DNA of 34,208 nt from Melioribacter roseus. GTDB taxonomy: Bacteria; Bacteroidota; Ignavibacteria; Ignavibacteriales; Melioribacteraceae. Each line of letters opens with the position of its first letter. Positions within the stretch are counted from its first letter, which is position 1. Location of the stretch: positions 1 through 34,208 of the forward strand of contig DYSW01000007.1 of NCBI GenBank assembly GCA_020726285.1, read 5' to 3'. Below, piece after piece: positions 3,030-34,208 of the stretch. Below the pieces are notes generated by a model. That model was not told the origin of the DNA. It ran no database searches and was given only the letters and a program-made list of their open reading frames with translations. The position numbers were made by a program, and so were the translations under genes.

Positions 3030-5648
3030 TCACTTTCGAAACACCAAATTATCTTTCCCTTCAGAAATATCAACTAAAATTTCATCACCATTTCCAATTC
3101 TTCCTAATAATATTTCAGTTGCTAACTTGTTGGAAATATAATTCTGAATTACTCGTTTTAATGGTCTTGCACCAAAAGAGACATCGTAACCAAGTTCCAA
3201 AATAAAATTCTTAGCCGCTTCTGTCAATTCAATCTGAATTTCCTTTTCAGCCAATTGTTTTTTCAATTTCTTTAATTGAATATCAATAATTTTATAGATT
3301 TCGTGTTTCAGCAGTGGTTTGAAAAGAATTATTTCATCAACTCTATTCAAAAATTCGGGACGAATAGTTTGTTTTAGCAACTCGCTGATTTCTTGTTCGA
3401 GTTCAAAATAATGCTTATCCGCATTTTCTTCTGTAAAATTGCGTAATCTATTTTGTATTAGCTGTGAGCCCAAATTTGATGTCATAATTATTATTGTATT
3501 CTTAAAATCAACAGTGCGCCCTTGGTTATCGGTTAGTCTTCCTTCATCAAGCACTTGGAGAAGAATATTAAAAACATCTGGATGCGCCTTTTCTATTTCA
3601 TCCAAAAGCAAAACAGAAAATGGATGGCGGCGAACTGCTTCGGTTAATTGTCCGCCTTCTTCGTAACCAACATAACCCGGAGGCGCTCCTATTAATCTTG
3701 AAACAGAATGCTTTTCCATATATTCCGACATATCAATTCTTATCATTGCTTTTTCGTCGTCAAACAGAAAATCCGCCAAAGTTCGTGCAAGTTCAGTTTT
3801 TCCGACTCCGGTTGTTCCTATAAAAATGAATGAGCCAATCGGACGATTTTCATCTTGCAAGCCTGCACGCGAGCGGCGAACTGCATTTGCAACTGCCGAA
3901 ACCGCCAAATCTTGTCCGATTATTCGTGTATGAAGTTCATCTTCCAAGCGAACTAATTTATCGCGTTCAGTTTCCAACATTTTGCTTAATGGAATTCCCG
4001 TCCATTTTGCAACAATTTCGGCAATATCTTCTGAATCAACTTCTTCCTTCAGTAATTTTTTTGACTGCTGAATTTCAGATAAATATTTTGTTTCGATTTC
4101 TAAATTTCTTTGAAGCTCATTTATTATTCCATATCTAATTTCTGCAACTTTCCCAAAATCGCCATTTCGCTCAAAATTTTCAGCTTCCATTTTAGCCTTT
4201 TCTATTTCAGATTTAATTATTCTAATTTTCTGAATTTGGGATTTTTCAACTTCCCATTGTGCTTTCAAGGAATTTCTCTTTTCACCGAATTCAGATAATT
4301 CAATTTGAATTTCTACTAATCTTTCAACAGATTTTTCATCAGTTTCCCGTTTCAATGCTTCACGTTCAATTTCCAATTGTTTGACTTTTCGTTCGATATT
4401 ATCCAATTCTTCGGGCATCGAGTTTATTTGAATTCTCAATCTCGAAGCGGCTTCGTCCACCAAATCGATTGCTTTATCTGGCAAAAATCTATCGGCAATA
4501 TATCTTGTGGAAAGTTGCACAGCGGAAATTATTGCAGAATCTGTAATTCGAACTCCGTGGTGAATTTCGTACTTTTCTTTTAATCCGCGTAAAATTGAAA
4601 TTGCGTCCTCATGATTTGGTTCATTTACCAAAACCGGCTGAAATCGGCGTTCCAAAGCAGAATCTTTTTCGATATATTTTTTGTATTCCTTTAGCGTTGT
4701 TGCGCCAATTGCGTGTAGTTCACCACGCGCAAGTGCTGGTTTTAGGATATTTGCAGCGTCCATTGCTCCATCTGTTTTGCCAGCTCCAACAAGCTGATGA
4801 ATTTCGTCAATGAATAGAATTACTTCGCCATCTTTTGCCTGAACTTCCTTTATTACAGCTTTAATTCTTTCTTCAAACTGTCCGCGAAACTGCGTACCAG
4901 CCACAAGCGAACCCAAATCAAGTGAAATTATAGATTTAGTTTTCAGATTTTCTGGAACATCTCCATCAACAATTCGATGTGCAATTCCTTCGGCAATTGC
5001 CGTTTTACCAACTCCAGGTTCTCCGATTAAAACGGGATTATTTTTGGTTCTTCGTGATAAAACTTGCAAAACTCTGCGAATTTCTTCATCTCGACCAATT
5101 ACTGGGTCAAGTTTTCCTTTTCTAACAAGATCGTTTAGATTTTTACCATATTTTTCCAATGCTTGGTAAGTATCTTCAGCGTTTGCATTTGTGATTCGCT
5201 GATTGCCGCGAATCTCTTGCAGAACTTTTAGAATCGAGTTTGTGTTTATCCCAAATTGATTAAGTAACTTTCCTGTTGAATCGGTTTGTTCGTTCAAAGC
5301 TAAAAAAATATGTTCCGAAGCTATGAACTCGTCTTTCAGATTATCAGCATATTTCAGGGAATTGTCGAGCAATTTTGCCGTTGCGTGCGACATTCGTTGG
5401 TTCCCGATTTTTGCTCCGTCAACTTTAGGAAAACGCTCCAATTCTTCCGCCAATTTTAATTGAATTGACTTTAAGTCAGCACCGATTTTGTGAATTACAG
5501 AAACCGCAATATTCTCTTTATCTTGAACTAAAGCCGCAAGAATATGAATTGGTTCAACCATTTGATTTGAATAACTTTGTGCAATTTCCACAGCATCTTG
5601 AATTGCATCTTGTGCTTTTATTGTCATTTTATCATAATTAAAACTCAT
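3030..5648 (-). CDS. clpB: ATP-dependent disaggregase ClpB
   Basis: This is an 872-residue Hsp100 chaperone that extracts polypeptides from aggregates together with DnaK. The order is Clp N-terminal repeat domain (about 1-150), first AAA+ module with Walker A GEPGVGKT (209-216) and Walker [11 protein letters not shown], a long charged coiled-coil middle domain (about 400-530), and a second AAA+ module with Walker A GTTGVGKT (near 609) and Walker [14 protein letters not shown]-terminal small domain follows. The middle domain and the absence of a zinc finger or a ClpP-binding loop signature favour ClpB over ClpA/ClpC. The start has AGGAGAAAATT before ATG. No CIRCE-type inverted repeat was seen in the 211-bp upstream gap. 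The gene appears monocistronic. Confidence 0.96.
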
Positions 5649-5859
5649 AATTTTCTCCTAATTTCTTAAATTTAATAAATCGAAAGCTAATTCCAATGTT
5701 TTTTAATTTCTTAGAATAAACAATATTTTTAATGATAATTCTATTCAAAAAGCTAATAGGAGTTTCAAAATTTACTTTTAGTAATTTACAATTAATATTG
5801 AATTAAACTTTTACTAACATTCAACCTATTTATTTGAATACACTTTTTTTTAGGTTGAT
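5649..5859. other. divergent intergenic region clpB / acyltransferase
   Basis: This 211-bp spacer must hold the promoters of clpB (-) and the acyltransferase (+). It is very A+T-rich. I found no exact TAnnTTTG element, no CIRCE and no clear operator, so no promoter is called. Confidence 0.4.
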
Positions 5860-6534
5860 ATGAAAATCGCAACAATGAAAATCGAGAATGAATTTCAGCG
5901 AAAATCCGCAATAAATATAATGAAAACCGTTTTTATGGATGAAAAGAAATGGATTAATTATCCAGATAAACATATTCCAAAAGAAACAATCAACTCGCCG
6001 CAATATTCTTGGTTTATTGCTTATTTTGATGAAATTCCAGTTGGTTTACTTCGTTTGCTTTACGATCCGCCATTAGAATTGCCAAAAAATTATCAAGTTA
6101 CTTTGAACAAAGACATAAATATTGCAGAACTTCAGCGTAGCGGTCGTTTTGTTGAAGTTGGAAGATTTATGATTTTGAAAGAATATCGGAAAAATTTCCG
6201 AATCGCTTTGAGTTTAATGAAATCATCAATAAAAGAAGTAATCGAACGAGATTACACTCACTTAATCACTGATGTCTTTGAAGGCGAAGAAACTTCGCCA
6301 TATAATTTTCACACTCGCGTTTTGGGTTTTAAGGAAATTGGCTCGCATTTGCACGGAGAATTAGAATGCCCAAACAGAAGAATAATTTTAACAATGAATA
6401 TTTATGAAAGTTATTTAAGTCTGAAGAAAAAAGGTGGAAAAATTTACGATTACATAAAAGATGAAATTGAGAATATTATTATTTCAAAAATTAGAAAAAA
6501 GAATAAAAGAATAACCCAAATAGCAACAATTTAG
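5860..6534 (+). CDS. GNAT-fold acyltransferase, FeeM/autoinducer-synthase-like
   Basis: A 224-residue protein with a GNAT-like core. The segment FVEVGRFMILKEYRKN (about 104-119), followed by an amphipathic helix and THLITDVFEGEET, resembles the region in N-acyl amino acid synthases (FeeM) and LuxI-type acyl-homoserine lactone synthases where an acidic-x-x-Arg motif precedes the acyl-carrier binding helix. The C-terminal 40 residues are Lys/Ile-rich and not clearly part of the fold. Substrate and product are unknown. It could equally be an ordinary acetyltransferase. It is a single gene bounded by its own terminator, with no LuxR-like neighbour. The start ATG has a weak AGGT site 7 nt upstream. 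Confidence 0.5.
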   Translation: MKIATMKIENEFQRKSAINIMKTVFMDEKKWINYPDKHIPKETINSPQYSWFIAYFDEIPVGLLRLLYDPPLELPKNYQVTLNKDINIAELQRSGRFVEVGRFMILKEYRKNFRIALSLMKSSIKEVIERDYTHLITDVFEGEETSPYNFHTRVLGFKEIGSHLHGELECPNRRIILTMNIYESYLSLKKKGGKIYDYIKDEIENIIISKIRKKNKRITQIATI

Positions 6535-28355: not shown

Positions 28356-29267
28356 TTAGTTTTTGTTAGATTGTGTTTCTGGGAAAGTTAATTCGATAGT
28401 TGTTCCATCTTCAATTTTTGAATGTATTTCTAAATCACCGCCCAGCATTTTTGTAAGTTTGCTTGCTAAAGTTAAACCAAGTCCCGCACCTTCATGTCGG
28501 CGGCGATAACCATCAATTTCCTGTTGTGAAAACGGACGAAGAACTTCTTCAAGCATTTCGTTACTAATTCCGTTTCTGGTATCGACAATTTCAATTCTAA
28601 AATCCTTATTTATTGGATAAGTTTTGATAAATACTTTTCCCTTCTCAACATTGTATTTAATTGCATTTTAAATTAATGCAAAAAGAATCTTTTTAAGATG
28701 AATTTCATCCGTTTCAATGAATTTATTTTCGTCATCAAGATGCAAATCGATTCGAATTGAATTTAGCTCGGCTGATTGCTTTAATTCCTCAACAACATAT
28801 TCAAGTATTCTATTTACGTTATAAAGATGAATTTCTGTTTGCATTTCGCCAGAATTAATTTGTGAAACATCAACAATATTATCCACAAGTCGCAAAAGTA
28901 GTTCAACACCTTCTTTATAAAACCTATTTACCGATTTGTAAAGTGTATAATCAAATTCTTCAATTAACGATTTCAGTTCCGACTTGTTTTCATCAAAAAA
29001 GAATAAATCTGAAGATTTTAGCGGAATAATTCGTTTCAGATTTTTCTTGAGAACATCAAGAATTTTTTCAATCTTTTGCAAACCATTAACTTCTTTTTCA
29101 AAAGAAATTAAACTTTGAATTATGTATGAATATTTTTCCACTTAAATTGCAGGATCTTTTTTAAGTCTGTGCAACAACTTTAACGAATTTTCGGGAACAT
29201 ATCCTTCTTAGCCTAAAGAATCAATTAAAGTTGGAAAATCTTCAGTATTTATCTTATGAACTTTCAT
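28356..29267 (-). pseudogene. degraded sensor histidine kinase
   Basis: A continuous 303-codon frame from ATG 29267 is broken by TAA at 29208-29210, 29142-29144 and 28668-28670. It lies five bases after the HDOD gene stop. The first 115 codons look like a small sensor or GAF remnant (KIEKILDVLKKNLKRIIP). Codons about 118-140 (LLLRLVDNIVDVSQINSG) are the dimerisation helix that follows the H-box, but the H-box His itself is missing, implying an in-frame deletion. The ATPase part has an N-box (NAIKYN) directly after the third stop, a damaged G1 box (DTRNGI instead of DTGxGI), an F-box (RPFSQQ), a G2 box (GAGLGLTLASK) and a DGTTIELTFP end. With no phosphorylated His and three stops it should be inactive. 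Confidence 0.82.
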
Positions 29268-29272
29268 TTACT

Positions 29273-30142
29273 TTAGAGTTGCAAAGTTTCAATTTCTTTT
29301 TGGAATAAATTTTTGTAACCTAAAATAAATTTATCAACCGCTTCAATACTTTTAAATTTTAATATTTCAAGCACGGATTCATCAAGCTGTAAACCGTTAT
29401 CCCAATAGAATTTACCGATATTCAATTTTTGTGTAGCATAATCTGCTAAATGTACAACTGAAGCCATAACTTTGCTTTCTTCAGCTAAATGTGGTTGATG
29501 GTGATTTGCAATTGTGTTGCAATGTGCCAATGGTAAATTCCATTTTTCGGCAAGGAATTTCCCAATTGTTTGGTGATTGTATCCAAGTTGGTTAGTTTCA
29601 ATTTGTAGATAATTTCCTTCTTCAACTGCTTTATTTACTATTTCAATAAAATCTGTATGGAAATATTTGTGTACAACTAGAATTCCCAAATCGTGCAATA
29701 ATCCAGAAACAAAAGCTTCGCTTCCAATTCTGAATCCCAAATCTTCTGCAATTCTTTTTGAAGCATTTCCTGTAATTAAAGAATGCATCCAAAATTCTTT
29801 TTGATCAAGATATTTATCTGTTTTATTCTTGAAGGATTCAATCATTGATAGAGCAATTACGATGTTTTTAATGTCTTGATAACCAACAATCAAAATCGCG
29901 AAATCAATTGTTATAACTTTTCTTGGTAAACCATAAAGCGGGGAATTTGCAATTGATAAGATTTTTGTTGCAAGTCCTTGGTCTTTTCCAATCATTTGTC
30001 CTAATTTTGCCGCGTTTGTTGTTGGATTATCAAGCATATTGGAAACTTCCATCATCACTTGCGACATAGACGGTAAATTGTAAACGTTTGAAAGGATTAA
30101 TTTAGTTTTTTTCTGTTTTTGTTCTAAAATTTGATCGCTCAT
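29273..30142 (-). CDS. HDOD-domain signalling protein (copy A)
   Basis: A 289-residue protein whose core (about 15-215) is an HDOD domain. Typical segments are LPSMSQVMMEVSNMLDNP, KDQGLATKILSIANSPLYG and an HD-like SGLLHDLGILV. HDOD proteins are non-enzymatic or regulatory relatives of HD phosphohydrolases, often found beside chemotaxis, flagellar or two-component genes. No GGDEF or EAL domain is attached. It has AGGAGAAAGGA before its ATG, follows its paralogue by 21 bp and precedes the broken histidine kinase by 5 bp. The frame is intact although both flanks are decaying. Confidence 0.88.
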   Translation of the reverse strand: MSDQILEQKQKKTKLILSNVYNLPSMSQVMMEVSNMLDNPTTNAAKLGQMIGKDQGLATKILSIANSPLYGLPRKVITIDFAILIVGYQDIKNIVIALSMIESFKNKTDKYLDQKEFWMHSLITGNASKRIAEDLGFRIGSEAFVSGLLHDLGILVVHKYFHTDFIEIVNKAVEEGNYLQIETNQLGYNHQTIGKFLAEKWNLPLAHCNTIANHHQPHLAEESKVMASVVHLADYATQKLNIGKFYWDNGLQLDESVLEILKFKSIEAVDKFILGYKNLFQKEIETLQL

Positions 30143-30163: not shown

Positions 30164-31039
30164 TTATAAAATTGTTGCTTCTGCTTGTTCTTGAATAATT
30201 ATTTTATATTTAGTACATATTTCTTCAAGATATTTTTCGTTGCTTAATTTTAGTGTATCAATAACTTTTCGCTCAAATTTGAAGTTTTTGTCCCAAATAA
30301 AACTGCCGATTTGCTTTTTGTCTAGCATAAAATCTGCAAGATGAACAACTGCCGCAAGTTCGTGGAATTCTTCATATTTCATTGGGGAATGGTGTGTTTC
30401 AACCACGGCGGAAAGTGATGTTGGCAAATTCCATCTTTCAATTAAATATTTTCCAACATCTTCGTGAGTTGCACCCAAAATTTCCATTTCAATAACTTCA
30501 ACTGGAGTTGTTGAGGTCTCGAGTAAATCCAAAATTTTAATGTATTCATCTTTAAAAAAGTTAAAAATTAGTGGAATTCCCAAATCGTGTAAGAATCCAG
30601 CAGTAAACGCTTCGCCGCTAAAATGATAACCCAAATCGTCTGCTAATCTTTTGGAAATTATTCCCGTTAAAAGGGAATGTTGCCAATATTGTTTTTGGTT
30701 GAAACATTTTCCGTCAATTCCATTGAATGCTTCAATCATGGAAAGTGCAATAACAATATTTTTAATATGATTAAACCCAAGTATCACAATTGCAAAATCG
30801 ATAGTTGAAACTTGACGTGGAATTCCATACAAAGGAGAATTTGCAATTTTAAGAATTTTGGTTGTTAAACCTTGATCTTTACTTATAATCTCCCCCAAAT
30901 CAGATGCCGAGGCATTCGAATCAGCAAGCATTCTATTCACTTCTGTTAAAACAATTGGAATAGAAGGTAGATTGTGGACATTATCTAAAATTGAAAATAT
31001 ATTCTTCTTTTTACTAAAATTTTCCAAATTAATTTCCAT
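30164..31039 (-). CDS. HDOD-domain signalling protein (copy B)
   Basis: A 291-residue paralogue of the neighbouring downstream HDOD gene and alignable with it over nearly its whole length: LPSIPIVLTEVNRMLADS, KDQGLTTKILKIANSPLYGIPRQ and AGFLHDLGIPL correspond segment by segment. This is a tandem duplication that has since diverged. Its ATG overlaps the last 11 bases of the readable fliA frame (which ends at 31029), suggesting it was translated as part of the flagellar operon. It is intact. The function is likely regulatory, and no catalytic residues can be asserted. Confidence 0.88.
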   Translation of the reverse strand: MEINLENFSKKKNIFSILDNVHNLPSIPIVLTEVNRMLADSNASASDLGEIISKDQGLTTKILKIANSPLYGIPRQVSTIDFAIVILGFNHIKNIVIALSMIEAFNGIDGKCFNQKQYWQHSLLTGIISKRLADDLGYHFSGEAFTAGFLHDLGIPLIFNFFKDEYIKILDLLETSTTPVEVIEMEILGATHEDVGKYLIERWNLPTSLSAVVETHHSPMKYEEFHELAAVVHLADFMLDKKQIGSFIWDKNFKFERKVIDTLKLSNEKYLEEICTKYKIIIQEQAEATIL

Positions 31040-31664
31040 ATTTGTGGGTTAACATTTCTTTAAGTCTTTCTACTACTTTTGTGTGTATTTGCGAAATTCG
31101 CGAAACTGTAATATCCAACACGTCAGATATTTCTTTATAATTTAAATTTTAGTAATAATACAAAGTCAAAATTAATCTTTCTCTTTCTGAAAGTTCATTT
31201 ATTGCATTAACAAGTAATTCTTTTTTTTTATTGAATTCATGTGTTTCTTCTGGACTTGCAGTTTCGGCTGGAATTACTTCGTAGAAGGAATAACCTTCTC
31301 TATCATCGTTTGTTTTATCTAACGAAATATTTGTATATCTCAAATTTCCTTGTTCATCAAAATTGCTGCGTGGTTTTATCTGAAGTTTCCGTAATTCATC
31401 AATAATTTTTCCTCGAATTCGTTGAATTGCATATGTTTCAAACTTGGTTCCATAATCTGGGTCAAATCTATCTATAGCCTCGCTAAGTCCTTCAATTCCG
31501 AATTGAAAGAAATCCTTTTCATCTACAACATTAAGATTTGCAAACTTACTATTGTTAATAACGTAATGCACCAAATTCGAGTAATTAACAATTATTTTCT
31601 GTTTTATCTTCGAATTTGGCTGCTCTTTGTATAATCGCCAATGAGTTTCATTCTCATTATTCAT
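31029..31664 (-). pseudogene. fliA: flagellar sigma-28 factor, broken
   Basis: The first 171 codons encode sigma regions 2.1-2.4 (FFQFGIEGLSEAIDRFDP, then TKFETYAIQRIRGKIIDELR) and the start of region 4 (LSERERLILTLYYY). A TAA at 31149-31151 then interrupts. The same frame continues in perfect family register: NLNYKEISDVLDITVSRISQIHTK, the region 4.2 helix-turn-helix, ending at 31029. Relatives read YYYENLTxKEI, so the stop replaces Glu. Between KPRS and the ISLD segment about 50-60 residues of region 3 also seem to be missing, compared with the usual 240-260-residue FliA. The ribosome would release a protein lacking the -35-binding helix, so it should not direct transcription. The start overlaps the preceding small gene by ATGA. 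Confidence 0.85.
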
Positions 31665-31998: not shown

Positions 31999-32503
31999 CT
32001 ATTTTTGTTTAATATTAGCCATTTGCACATATTTGCGTATTTTTTGACTAATATTACCAATTTCAGTTTGAGCTTTACTGCTATTATTTTTCACAAAAAA
32101 CAGAGTTTGGTTTGAACTCGATTTTCGAAAGATTCCTGAAAAATAAATCTAACGCAGTTTCGGTTATTTTGTTTCGACTGCCAGATTCTCCAAAAATGAT
32201 ATCCGCAAATTCTTCTTTTTGTACAATTTTTTCAAGCGAAGTGTTATTTTGAAAATAATCTTTGATTGATGAATCTGGAAAAATATTTAGCAAAATATGC
32301 AGATTAGAAAAATTCAAATCCATGTCGATTACTAAAACTCGCAAATTGTTTTCAAATAACGCTTTAGCAAGATTTAATATGAACATTGATTTTCCAGTTC
32401 CACCTTTTCCGGAGGTTATTCCAATAATTGGAATTTCTGGATAATTCATATTTTCGGTAAAGTACAAACTAAGTTGCGATATTCTTTCTGCTTGACCTAT
32501 CAT
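31999..32503 (-). pseudogene. flhG: FlhG/MinD-like flagellar number ATPase, deleted and frameshifted
   Basis: The frame from ATG 32503 gives 139 residues and stops at 32084. It starts with the FlhG-type QAERISQL helix and has the deviant Walker A GITSGKGGTGKS (about 28-39), then VLVIDMDLNFSNLHILL. The second Asp motif (DTGAG) and most of the C-terminal half are missing: the text jumps from IIFGESGS to a segment resembling the distal part. Removing one T from the T6 run (complement of 32095-32100) restores a frame that continues to TAG at 31999-32001 with FVKNNSSKAQTEIGNISQKI, which resembles the usual FlhG C terminus. Together this suggests an in-frame internal deletion plus a one-base insertion. 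The start overlaps the upstream flhF end by ATGA. Confidence 0.78.
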
Positions 32504-33036
32504 CTGTTCAATTTTCCAGAAATAACTAAATTTGCTACAAAATCCGAGTCGGCTGCAATAATATCATCTGGAATTGTTTGTCCATTTGTTAAAAACTTAA
32601 TTGGAACTTCAATTGTTGATGATAAATTGAGCAAATTTCCGAAACTTACTGACTCATCAAGTTTGGTGAAAATTAGTCCATTGTAATTAAAAAGTTCAAA
32701 TTTTTCTGCAATATCAAGCATTGTTTTTAAGCTACTTGTTGAATTTAACACTAGGAATGTTTCATCTACTTTTACGGAGGAAATAAATTGTTTAATATCT
32801 TTTAGCAGCTCAAGGTTATTCTGACTTCTTCCAACAGTATCGATAAAAATTAAATCTTTTGTTTTGAATTTACGAACATGCGGCACAAGTACTCCATATT
32901 CCAAAGCGATAAATTTTCGTGTTGAAGCAATTTTTTGGAATAAATTCCCTCCAAGTTTTTCATCAACAAGCGAAATTAATCCGTAACCAATTTCAATTTC
33001 AATTGGGTCAACCTGAATGAATTCCTCAACTTTTAC
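32500..33036 (-). pseudogene. chimera of internal FlhA and C-terminal FlhF
   Basis: This continues the reading frame of the upstream fliR-flhA chimera after its TAA stop. The first about 55 codons are FlhA cytoplasmic domain ([18 protein letters not shown], then [14 protein letters not shown] and [11 protein letters not shown]). Near 32865-32875 it switches without loss of frame to the end of the SRP-like GTPase Flh[12 protein letters not shown] (G3), FTKLDES (G4), then FGNLLN and [15 protein letters not shown]. The FlhA C terminus and the FlhF N-terminal and P-loop parts are gone, so neither activity can remain. A start at 32904 is possible only as a non-canonical TTG. The end overlaps flhG by ATGA. 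Confidence 0.82.
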
Positions 33037-33945
33037 TTATTTTGGCTCGGTATCAACAGTTTCCTCAATTTCTTGAATCTTCAATTCTTCTTCCTTTTTC
33101 TTTTTACTTAAAAAGAAGGTTGCAAAACCAGAAATGCTTCCAAGAAATAAAAAGGGTATTGTCGGCATTCCAGGAATGATTGCAACAAGTAAAATTGAAC
33201 TAGTTACAACTCCTAGTACGCGGGCATTGCCCATTAATTGCATTTTTATTTGTTTATCGAGAGCATTTCCTTCGGCATTTTTTGTAACAATAATACCCGA
33301 AGCAACAGAAATTAGCAAAGCTGGAATTTGTGAAACCAACCCGTCGCCAATTGTTAAAATTGTGTAAGTTTGTAAAGCACTAATTATATCCATTCCATCT
33401 TGCCAAACTCCGATAATAAAACCGCCAAAAATATTGATTGATGTTATTATCAACCATGCAACAGCATCTCCTTTTACAATAACTACGAACTCAATAATTA
33501 CAAGAATGAAGAAAATTATAAATCTGTGTCCACCTATTATTACAAAAATTACACTGCCCATAAAAACAAGTAAAACACCTAAAATATTTTCTGATGTTTG
33601 TGAATTTGGATCGAACATATCTGCCATCATTAATCCAATTTCGTGACTGAGCAAAAATCCCGCAAATGAAATTCCGTAAAAGATTAATTCCAAAGTAAAG
33701 CCCATAATTACTCCAGTTAGAACTTCTTTCAATCCCATAAAAAATAGCCAGATAAATGAAATATTCGAAGGAACATCAACTCTGGGAATAATCATAAAAA
33801 TGATATAAGTAATTGCTAATGCAGTAATTGCTTTGATAAATGTGGGAAAACTTTCATTATTGAAAAAAGGAGCAACCAAGAATAATGATAGAATCCGAAC
33901 AAAAATTAGTATTCCAGTTATAAAATCTGATATAAGAATGTTCAT
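33037..33945 (-). pseudogene. chimera of N-terminal FliR and FlhA fragments
   Basis: The 302-residue frame starts as FliR, the membrane subunit of the flagellar export gate: residues 1 to about 140 include FVRILSLFLVAPFF, GFLLSHEIGLMMADMFDP and the FliR GGH. From about 143 it is FlhA: FFILVIIEFVVI, then from about 157 KGDAVAWLIITSINIFGG and TIGDGLVSQIPALLIS. FlhA normally has about 100 residues between those two pieces, so two deletions are present: FliR end plus all of FlhB plus FlhA start, and an internal FlhA piece. Both junctions are in frame. TAA at 33037-33039 then interrupts the FlhA linker. The start ATG overlaps the fliQ stop (ATGA). It should not function as either protein. Confidence 0.85.
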
Positions 33946-34208
33946 TGCAAGGAATTTATCATAATGTTAAAAACATCTTTTGTAAACGAAATCATTTTAT
34001 CTGCCAAAAATGGAAGTAGAACAATTATTACGATTGCAGTTACTATCAGTTTTGGAACAAAAGTTAAAGTCATTTCCTGAATTGAAGTTGCTGCTTGAAA
34101 AATTGAGATTATTATTCCAACTATCAAACCAGCTCCCAAAACTGGTAAAAGAATTATCAAAACAGTATAAAATGCGTCTGTAAGCAAGCTAATTACTACA
34201 TCAATTGT
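33942..34208 (-). CDS. fliQ: flagellar export protein FliQ, 5' end beyond the window
   Basis: At least 88 residues of FliQ, a two-helix subunit of the flagellar type III export gate. Family signatures are present: ISIFQAATSIQEMTLTFVPKL between the two membrane helices. The frame stays open to the window edge (TIDVVISLLTDAF...), so the true start probably lies only a few codons outside. The TTG at 34187 is an internal alternative that would cut off the expected N terminus. It is the only flagellar gene here that looks whole. fliP would be expected just outside. Confidence 0.9.
   Translation of the reverse strand, partial: TIDVVISLLTDAFYTVLIILLPVLGAGLIVGIIISIFQAATSIQEMTLTFVPKLIVTAIVIIVLLPFLADKMISFTKDVFNIMINSLQ

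Follow-up and report, generated by a model that had tools for sequence, protein, structure and literature searches.

Remnants of a flagellar operon indicate probable recent loss of the flagellum by short-repeat deletion in a Melioribacter-like bacterium

A fused fliR-flhA-flhF frame

The window, meaning the whole stretch of 34,208 nucleotides that was analysed, comprises bases 1-34208 of contig C2 (61,885 bp) in a draft genome (G000) of 2.06 Mb and 140 contigs, with estimated completeness of 100% and contamination of 1.73%. The features given below with window coordinates are all on the minus strand. The window ends at a scaffold gap of 100 N (contig C2 34209-34308) that falls between fliQ and the rest of fliP. 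The sequence of fliQ (33942-34208) is retained (Bac_export_3, E 3.5e-26), and beyond it, at 32500-33945, FliR residues 1-144 are followed by two pieces of FlhA and then by the C-terminus of FlhF, in one frame interrupted by a single TAA. The original prediction had described this arrangement from the letters, and the open reading frames, the Pfam matches and the alignment to an intact relative confirm it. The open reading frame at 33037-33945 matches Bac_export_1 (FliR) at residues 10-156 and FHIPEP (FlhA) at residues 157-294, and the one at 32500-33036 matches FHIPEP and then SRP54 (the FlhF GTPase). The fliR'-flhA' part is open over 302 codons, and its stop/start overlap with fliQ is kept.

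The reference for these comparisons is G001, the nearest relative compared, which belongs to the same genus and has a genome of 2.4 Mb with an intact flagellar operon; its contig C3 corresponds to DYLK01000006.1, a Melioribacter roseus MAG record (isolate SulCav_AS07-7_31_329; 19,202 bases identical). DNA identity to G001 is 92.7% over 7,480 aligned bases of the flagellar cluster and 92.4% in 28,290 bases of neighbouring DNA. In G001, the whole genes encode 257 (fliR), 362 (flhB), 680 (flhA), 380 (flhF) and 273 (flhG) amino acids. The order fliQ-fliR-flhB-flhA-flhF-flhG, which the original prediction gave as the usual one, is intact in G001 and the same in G003, a farther member of the genus with a genome of 3.1 Mb. 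The remnants follow the order of these intact Melioribacteraceae operons (fliQ-fliR-flhB-flhA-flhF-flhG-fliA); unlike them, the cluster carries six deletions and seven stops and has no flhB. Because the operon is intact and colinear in G001 and the gene order is the same in G003, the broken arrangement is taken as the derived state. Of two candidate nearer outgroups, G004 is close to G003 and G002 is about equally distant from all, and G003 was therefore chosen for polarising changes. Many of the G001 gene names, and the names of the control genes, are readings of translations.

Within the fused frame, the N-terminal part of FliR (33514-33945; Pfam and alignment to G001) retains 144 codons, and the C-terminal part is lost. 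It meets FlhA at 33514-33524, where 1779 bp, including all of flhB, have been lost relative to G001 at an 11-nt direct repeat, AATTATAAATC (position 33514, read against G001). The first FlhA piece, of ~18 codons (33470-33524), is known from the G001 alignment (blastn, 55 bp at 94.5%) and has no Pfam call. A second junction, inside flhA at 33470-33479, marks the loss of 189 bp at a 7-nt exact repeat, CCTTTTA (33470), which covers the shared KG codons; the break had been placed in a short KG segment common to both sides, and the repeat is that segment. The second FlhA piece (32872-33479) has FHIPEP matches and aligns to G001 at 92.8% over 608 bp (blastn). It contains the nonsense TAA (33037-33039), which lies between the two open reading frames and stands where G001 has GAA. 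At the third junction (32872-32879), between flhA and flhF, 1649 bp have been lost, and the repeat, ACGAACAG, is 8 nt long in G001, with 7 nt kept here (32872). What remains of FlhF is approximately the last third, the C-terminal GTPase part (32500-32878; SRP54, E 3.2e-23; 125 of 381 codons aligned). At least three large deletions totalling several kilobases, with direct repeats at the breakpoints, had been anticipated; against intact G001 there are three, of ~3.6 kb in total, with repeats of 11, 7 and 8 nt. The further claim that every junction kept frame stands for these three and does not extend to the whole cluster, in which five of six do.

The Bac_export_1 match to FliR covers only positions 3-145 of 230 in the profile. 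The FHIPEP pieces fall within positions 172-377 of 657 and are broken by the TAA, whereas the span in most relatives is 1-656 or 2-656. A complete FlhF GTPase with its P-loop is likewise lacking, as the SRP54 match runs from 79 to 189 of 196 and approximately the first two thirds of the gene are deleted. Nor is the export gate (FliP, FliQ, FliR, FlhA and FlhB) complete, with FlhB absent and FliR and FlhA truncated; fliP itself is interrupted by the N gap. Any product of the fused frame would be unlikely to function, because it lacks the whole of FlhB, the FliR C-terminus and roughly two thirds each of FlhA and FlhF.

Other scars in the cluster

Next to the fused frame, flhG (32084-32503; CbiA and AAA_31 matches) consists of an N-terminal part with an out-of-frame tail, 139 aa versus 273 aa in G001; its junction (32117-32126) marks the loss of 317 bp at a 10-nt repeat and is the one in the cluster that is out of frame. 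The gene for the flagellar sigma factor, fliA (31149-31664; alignment to G001), is cut by a TAA at codon 172, and the product lacks region 4, with a Pfam match to Sigma70_r2 only versus r2 and r4 in the G001 protein. Two genes are intact and free of internal stops: HDOD-domain gene 1 (30164-31039; 291 aa; HDOD in the G001 copy) and HDOD-like gene 2 (29273-30142; 289 aa), a paralogue of gene 1 that is named by reading.

At 28668-29141, comparison with G001 reveals an in-frame fusion of the N-terminal part of HK2, an operon gene of 427 aa in G001 that is kinase-like by reading only and has no Pfam match, with the C-terminal part of HK1, a histidine kinase by Pfam (638 aa in G001). The junction (28905-28916) lies at a 12-nt repeat, AACACCTTCTTT, and 17,904 bp have been lost, which by reading of G001 took flgFGAHIJNKL, two motAB-like pairs, fliW, csrA and response regulators. 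Two stops (29210 and 29144) precede the fusion and another at 28670 stands at its end; a leftover frame of 66 aa from the HK1 C-terminus (28356-28556) appears in the list of open reading frames and aligns to G001. Just outside the window, a deletion of 677 bp joins fliM to fliN in frame at a 6-nt exact repeat, which is longer if two mismatches are allowed.

The seven nonsense codons relative to G001 are in flhA, fliA, HK2 (two) and HK1 within the window and in fliO and fliM beyond it, and fliM also has a frameshift from a 1-nt deletion. These frame-breaking lesions are absent from the intact close relative, as in a cluster of pseudogenes. All seven nonsense codons (C2 28670-35496) are TAA, and four of them are GAA to TAA changes.

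Flagellar and chemotaxis genes elsewhere in the genome

A full flagellar operon elsewhere in the genome, which would have told against the original prediction, was sought by profile search of the whole genome. The sole FHIPEP match is the scarred copy in the cluster. There is no match to FlhB (Bac_export_2), of which G001 and G003 have one each, so that flhB, claimed to be gone, is absent both from the locus and from the genome-wide search; there is also none to FliF (one each in G001 and G003) or to the flagellin N family (two in G001, three in G003). The search that had been proposed for fliC, flgE and motA thus returned no flagellin N match. From the rod/hook C-terminal family it returned one flgE scrap on contig C13, where G001 and G003 have five matches apiece, and this scrap is all that was found of the set expected for a functional flagellum (FliF, flagellin, rod/hook). 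It also returned one MotA_ExbB match, versus five in G001 and four in G003, which is read as ExbB-like from its resemblance in score and frame length, unaligned, to a protein on G001 contig C29. The CheW family is represented by two pieces of one frameshifted gene on contig C85, and no counterpart of the CheA copy of G001 and G003 was matched. The cheW lesion (C85 30192-30604) is a 2-nt frameshift relative to G001.

Searches with DNA gave a similar picture. No match in the genome was obtained with 14,843 of the 17,904 lost bases as query; positions 46,207-55,999 of G001 contig C33 were not among the queries. Positions 56,000-68,601 of C33, which by reading hold chemotaxis genes, flgB and flgC, gave five matches only, at 63-73% identity and all over one regulator-gene stretch. 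Other G001 stretches gave true matches in the same kind of search, which serves as a control for the empty ones. Translocated full copies are therefore rejected, as none was found for FlhA, FlhB, FliF, flagellin or the 14,843 queried bases. All flagellar gene families searched are missing, scarred or present as scraps; FliG, FliI, FlgD and FliK were outside the individual searches.

The second flagellar locus, on C13, is reduced to part of flgE, joined directly to sequence whose counterpart in G001 is on contig C18, near the flagellin gene. Homology at this junction is 0-1 nt, and a single large deletion could account for the arrangement provided that C33 and C18 adjoin each other in G001. Contig C13 also has a 1.76-kb stretch (4307-6069), within a long open frame, that is not at the matching place in G001. 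Beside flagellin on G001 C18 (L061 5248-9969) is a gene whose 1573-aa product is rich in TPRs and matches Glyco_transf_9, perhaps a candidate flagellin-modifying enzyme, and a DNA search with this C18 stretch gave no match to the gene in G000.

Short repeats at the junctions

When deletions of equal length are placed at random in the G001 region, homology at their junctions averages 0.83-0.90 nt. The probability of homology at least as long as that observed is 0.0004 at the fliR/flhA junction, 0.0019 inside flhA and 0.0004 at flhA/flhF. All six deletions in the cluster are at repeats of 6-12 nt (each P 0.0003-0.006), which is beyond chance, and short-repeat deletions are best read as having done most of the cutting here.

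The adjoining DNA is quieter: an alignment of 28,358 bp has 21 gap openings and 56 gap nt in total, the largest gap being 14 nt. No internal stop occurs in 13 control genes; pepM16b has lost one nucleotide at its end, and in two of the genes the end positions differ by one codon. A fourteenth gene, which was taken out of the dN/dS comparison, ends with a 4-nt insertion, and the gene opt was removed from the controls because its end failed to map. Farther along contig C2, in its inverted right part, there are two non-flagellar losses, of 909 and 395 bp, with homology of ~4 nt or less. It would therefore be too strong to say that deletions occurred only in flagellar genes; they are not confined to these, and short repeats are not universal at deletions, since the flgE junction is without them and the non-flagellar losses do not clearly have them.

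The right part of C2 differs from G001 in other respects. At least 19 kb (42377-61554) is inverted relative to G001 contig C3, and the ~6 kb between the end of fliL and the inverted block has no match on that contig; by reading, its genes encode a HAD phosphatase, a TonB-type receptor, a UbiA-like protein and an aminotransferase. At 48540-49034, a sensor kinase of 542 aa in G001, where it has PAS, HisKA, HATPase and receiver domains, is now 165 aa through the 909-bp deletion, which is in frame.

Age and pace of decay

Pairwise dN/dS is 0.121 for 13 cluster genes (a set that includes genes without a stop, such as fliL, fliN and fliQ), 0.087 for the 13 controls and 0.170 for the two intact HDOD genes. 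The value for the remnants is only slightly above that of the controls, and because it is barely raised the decay looks recent. When missense changes in the cluster are polarised with G003, 35 are assigned to the G000 branch and 28 to that of G001, with 70 unresolved over 1,883 codons. The corresponding figures are 20 versus 15 for the controls (56 unresolved, 1,209 codons, with G003 orthologues for two of the 13 genes) and 15 versus 7 for the HDOD genes (21 unresolved, 571 codons). Under a joint neutral model, in which the neutral ratio of nonsense to missense changes is about 0.085, relaxation is estimated to have lasted for 0.051-0.066 of the branch with the 13 genes and for 0.044-0.055 once HK1 and HK2 are omitted, given resolved fractions of 0.55, 0.65 and 0.75, a branch taken as half of dS and a fourfold-site spectrum. 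On this model the decay appears to occupy ~4-7% of the branch. Two points sit awkwardly with such a decay: the dN/dS values do not demonstrate relaxed constraint, as the intact HDOD genes exceed the remnants, and the nonsense codons seem rather numerous beside the small excess of missense changes, which simple neutral decay would not predict.

It may be, then, that inactivation was favoured by selection as a cost saving, so that stops and deletions accumulated faster than under neutral drift. Seven nonsense codons were seen in the 13 genes where the model expects 2.5-3.3 (p 0.004-0.018 over the resolved fractions tried), and missense on the G000 branch is hardly raised in the cluster (35 versus 28, with 20 versus 15 in the controls). 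However, when HK1 and HK2 are left out there are four stops versus 1.8-2.3 expected (p 0.08-0.18), the model depends on the assumed resolved fraction, the half-dS branch and the fourfold-site spectrum, and there would be little gain from extra stops after a first hit. The nonsense excess is suggestive only, and selected inactivation seems unlikely.

Assembly and reading frame

An alternative explanation supposes an intact genome and places the fault in the assembly, where contig ends would have been fused at short overlaps arising by chance or as amplification chimeras. The assembly is a draft of 140 contigs with N gaps, and a gap-closing step might accept overlaps of 6-12 nt such as those at the joins. 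On the other side, the searched part of the skipped DNA, FliF and flagellin are nowhere in an assembly rated 100% complete, the system also carries stops and frameshifts that owe nothing to the joins, and the adjoining 28.3 kb has no such joins. Of the six skipped spans, moreover, three (1.6, 1.8 and 17.9 kb) are too long for read pairs from ordinary short inserts, and the other three (189-677 bp) are not. An artefact of this sort is improbable.

Five of the six cluster junctions are in frame (P = 0.018 under random frames), and it could be proposed that frame retention was selected, for example against polar effects on the downstream intact HDOD genes. Short repeats within genes do not meet at random, however. 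Among maximal direct repeats within the region's genes, the proportion sharing codon phase rises from 48% (at least 6 nt) to 65% (at least 11 nt); it is alike in the G003 flagellar genes and in G000 housekeeping genes, and similar after codon shuffling within genes, with shuffled values mostly slightly higher in G000 and G001. A length-specific null built on these proportions expects 3.44 of six junctions in frame, and the probability of at least five is 0.19. With codon phase shared by 48-65% of such repeats, there is no need to invoke selection on the frame, and the idea was rejected on that ground; the frames are in any case already interrupted by stops, and we give this proposal a very slender chance. 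Among the titles and abstract openings listed for literature on codon phase, none raises the codon phase of short repeats; one paper (PMC12871928) reportedly touches on frameshifts in repeats.

It is scarcely credible that the fused frame encodes a functional chimera or is an export remnant put to a new use: 302 codons are open with the fliQ overlap kept, the cluster dN/dS is low (0.121) and relict export genes are reported to have a role in non-flagellated Lysobacter (PMC7277350), but there is an internal TAA and no FlhB, FliR is cut mid-protein, fliM, fliO, fliA and flhG are broken too, a low dN/dS is expected from constraint before a recent loss, and the new role in Lysobacter, as described in that report, needs each of flhA, flhB, fliI and fliR.

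Mechanism and comparison with known systems

Genuine and recent loss of the flagellum by short-repeat deletion, in a Melioribacter-like bacterium, is very probably the explanation for what the sequence contains. Once the flagellar genes were no longer needed, deletions between direct repeats of 6-12 nt would have cut pieces out of the operon, perhaps by slipped-strand mispairing or single-strand annealing, and point mutations would have supplied the stop codons, although the order of these events is a reconstruction. The cells would presumably not swim. The fliR-flhA-flhF frame would be a by-product of the deletions, as direct repeats in coding DNA often consist of shared codons and cut ends therefore tend to meet in frame. 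One point against this account is that the junctions are known from a single genome, and no second genome carries the same ones. A stronger version, in which selection against a costly, useless operon drove stops and deletions into many cluster genes within ~4-7% of the branch, faster than missense changes allow under drift, and in which phase-shared repeats routinely make in-frame chimeras that might on rare occasions be kept as new proteins, is speculative and rather unlikely.

The process is known in kind. In Haloquadratum walsbyi, deletions at short direct repeats of 4-20 bp and many pseudogenes are reported (PMC3119063), and the losses described here similarly lie between short direct repeats; that organism, however, is an archaeon with genome-wide strain differences, while the present case concerns mainly one pathway and repeats of 6-12 nt. 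Repeated flagellar loss with degeneration within a lineage is reported for Actinobacteria (PMC10746217), in what is described as a phylogenomic survey across species; the present case shows a single recent loss through the scars at its junctions. Lysobacter enzymogenes (PMC7277350) is alike in keeping flagellar export genes while being non-flagellated, although those genes are reported to be functional and repurposed and the ones here are broken. For M. roseus itself, flagellar motility and flagellar genes are reported (PMC3534657).

Distribution and significance

An FlhA match is present in 65 of 79 family genomes, with G000 counted as a match, and there is none in the other 14; among genomes with completeness of 90% or more and contamination of 5% or less, it is present in 48 of 56. 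Ten other matches are partial, seven of them at contig ends by coordinates, and the rest are in G048 (C331), G043 (C257) and G092 (C345). Among the matching family genomes, only G000 has an internal stop in the FlhA match. Since FlhA is without a match in 14 of the 79 genomes, loss is recurrent in the family.

G000 is a new and unusually clear example of this kind of loss, as it offers a junction-level view beside an intact sister whose DNA differs by only 7-8%. The sharing of codon phase (48-65% versus 33%) gives a simple numerical reason for long in-frame fusions after such deletions, and automatic annotation may call these fusions genes. The remnants also suggest that most genes of an operon can be lost or truncated through short-repeat deletions while missense decay is still hardly visible.
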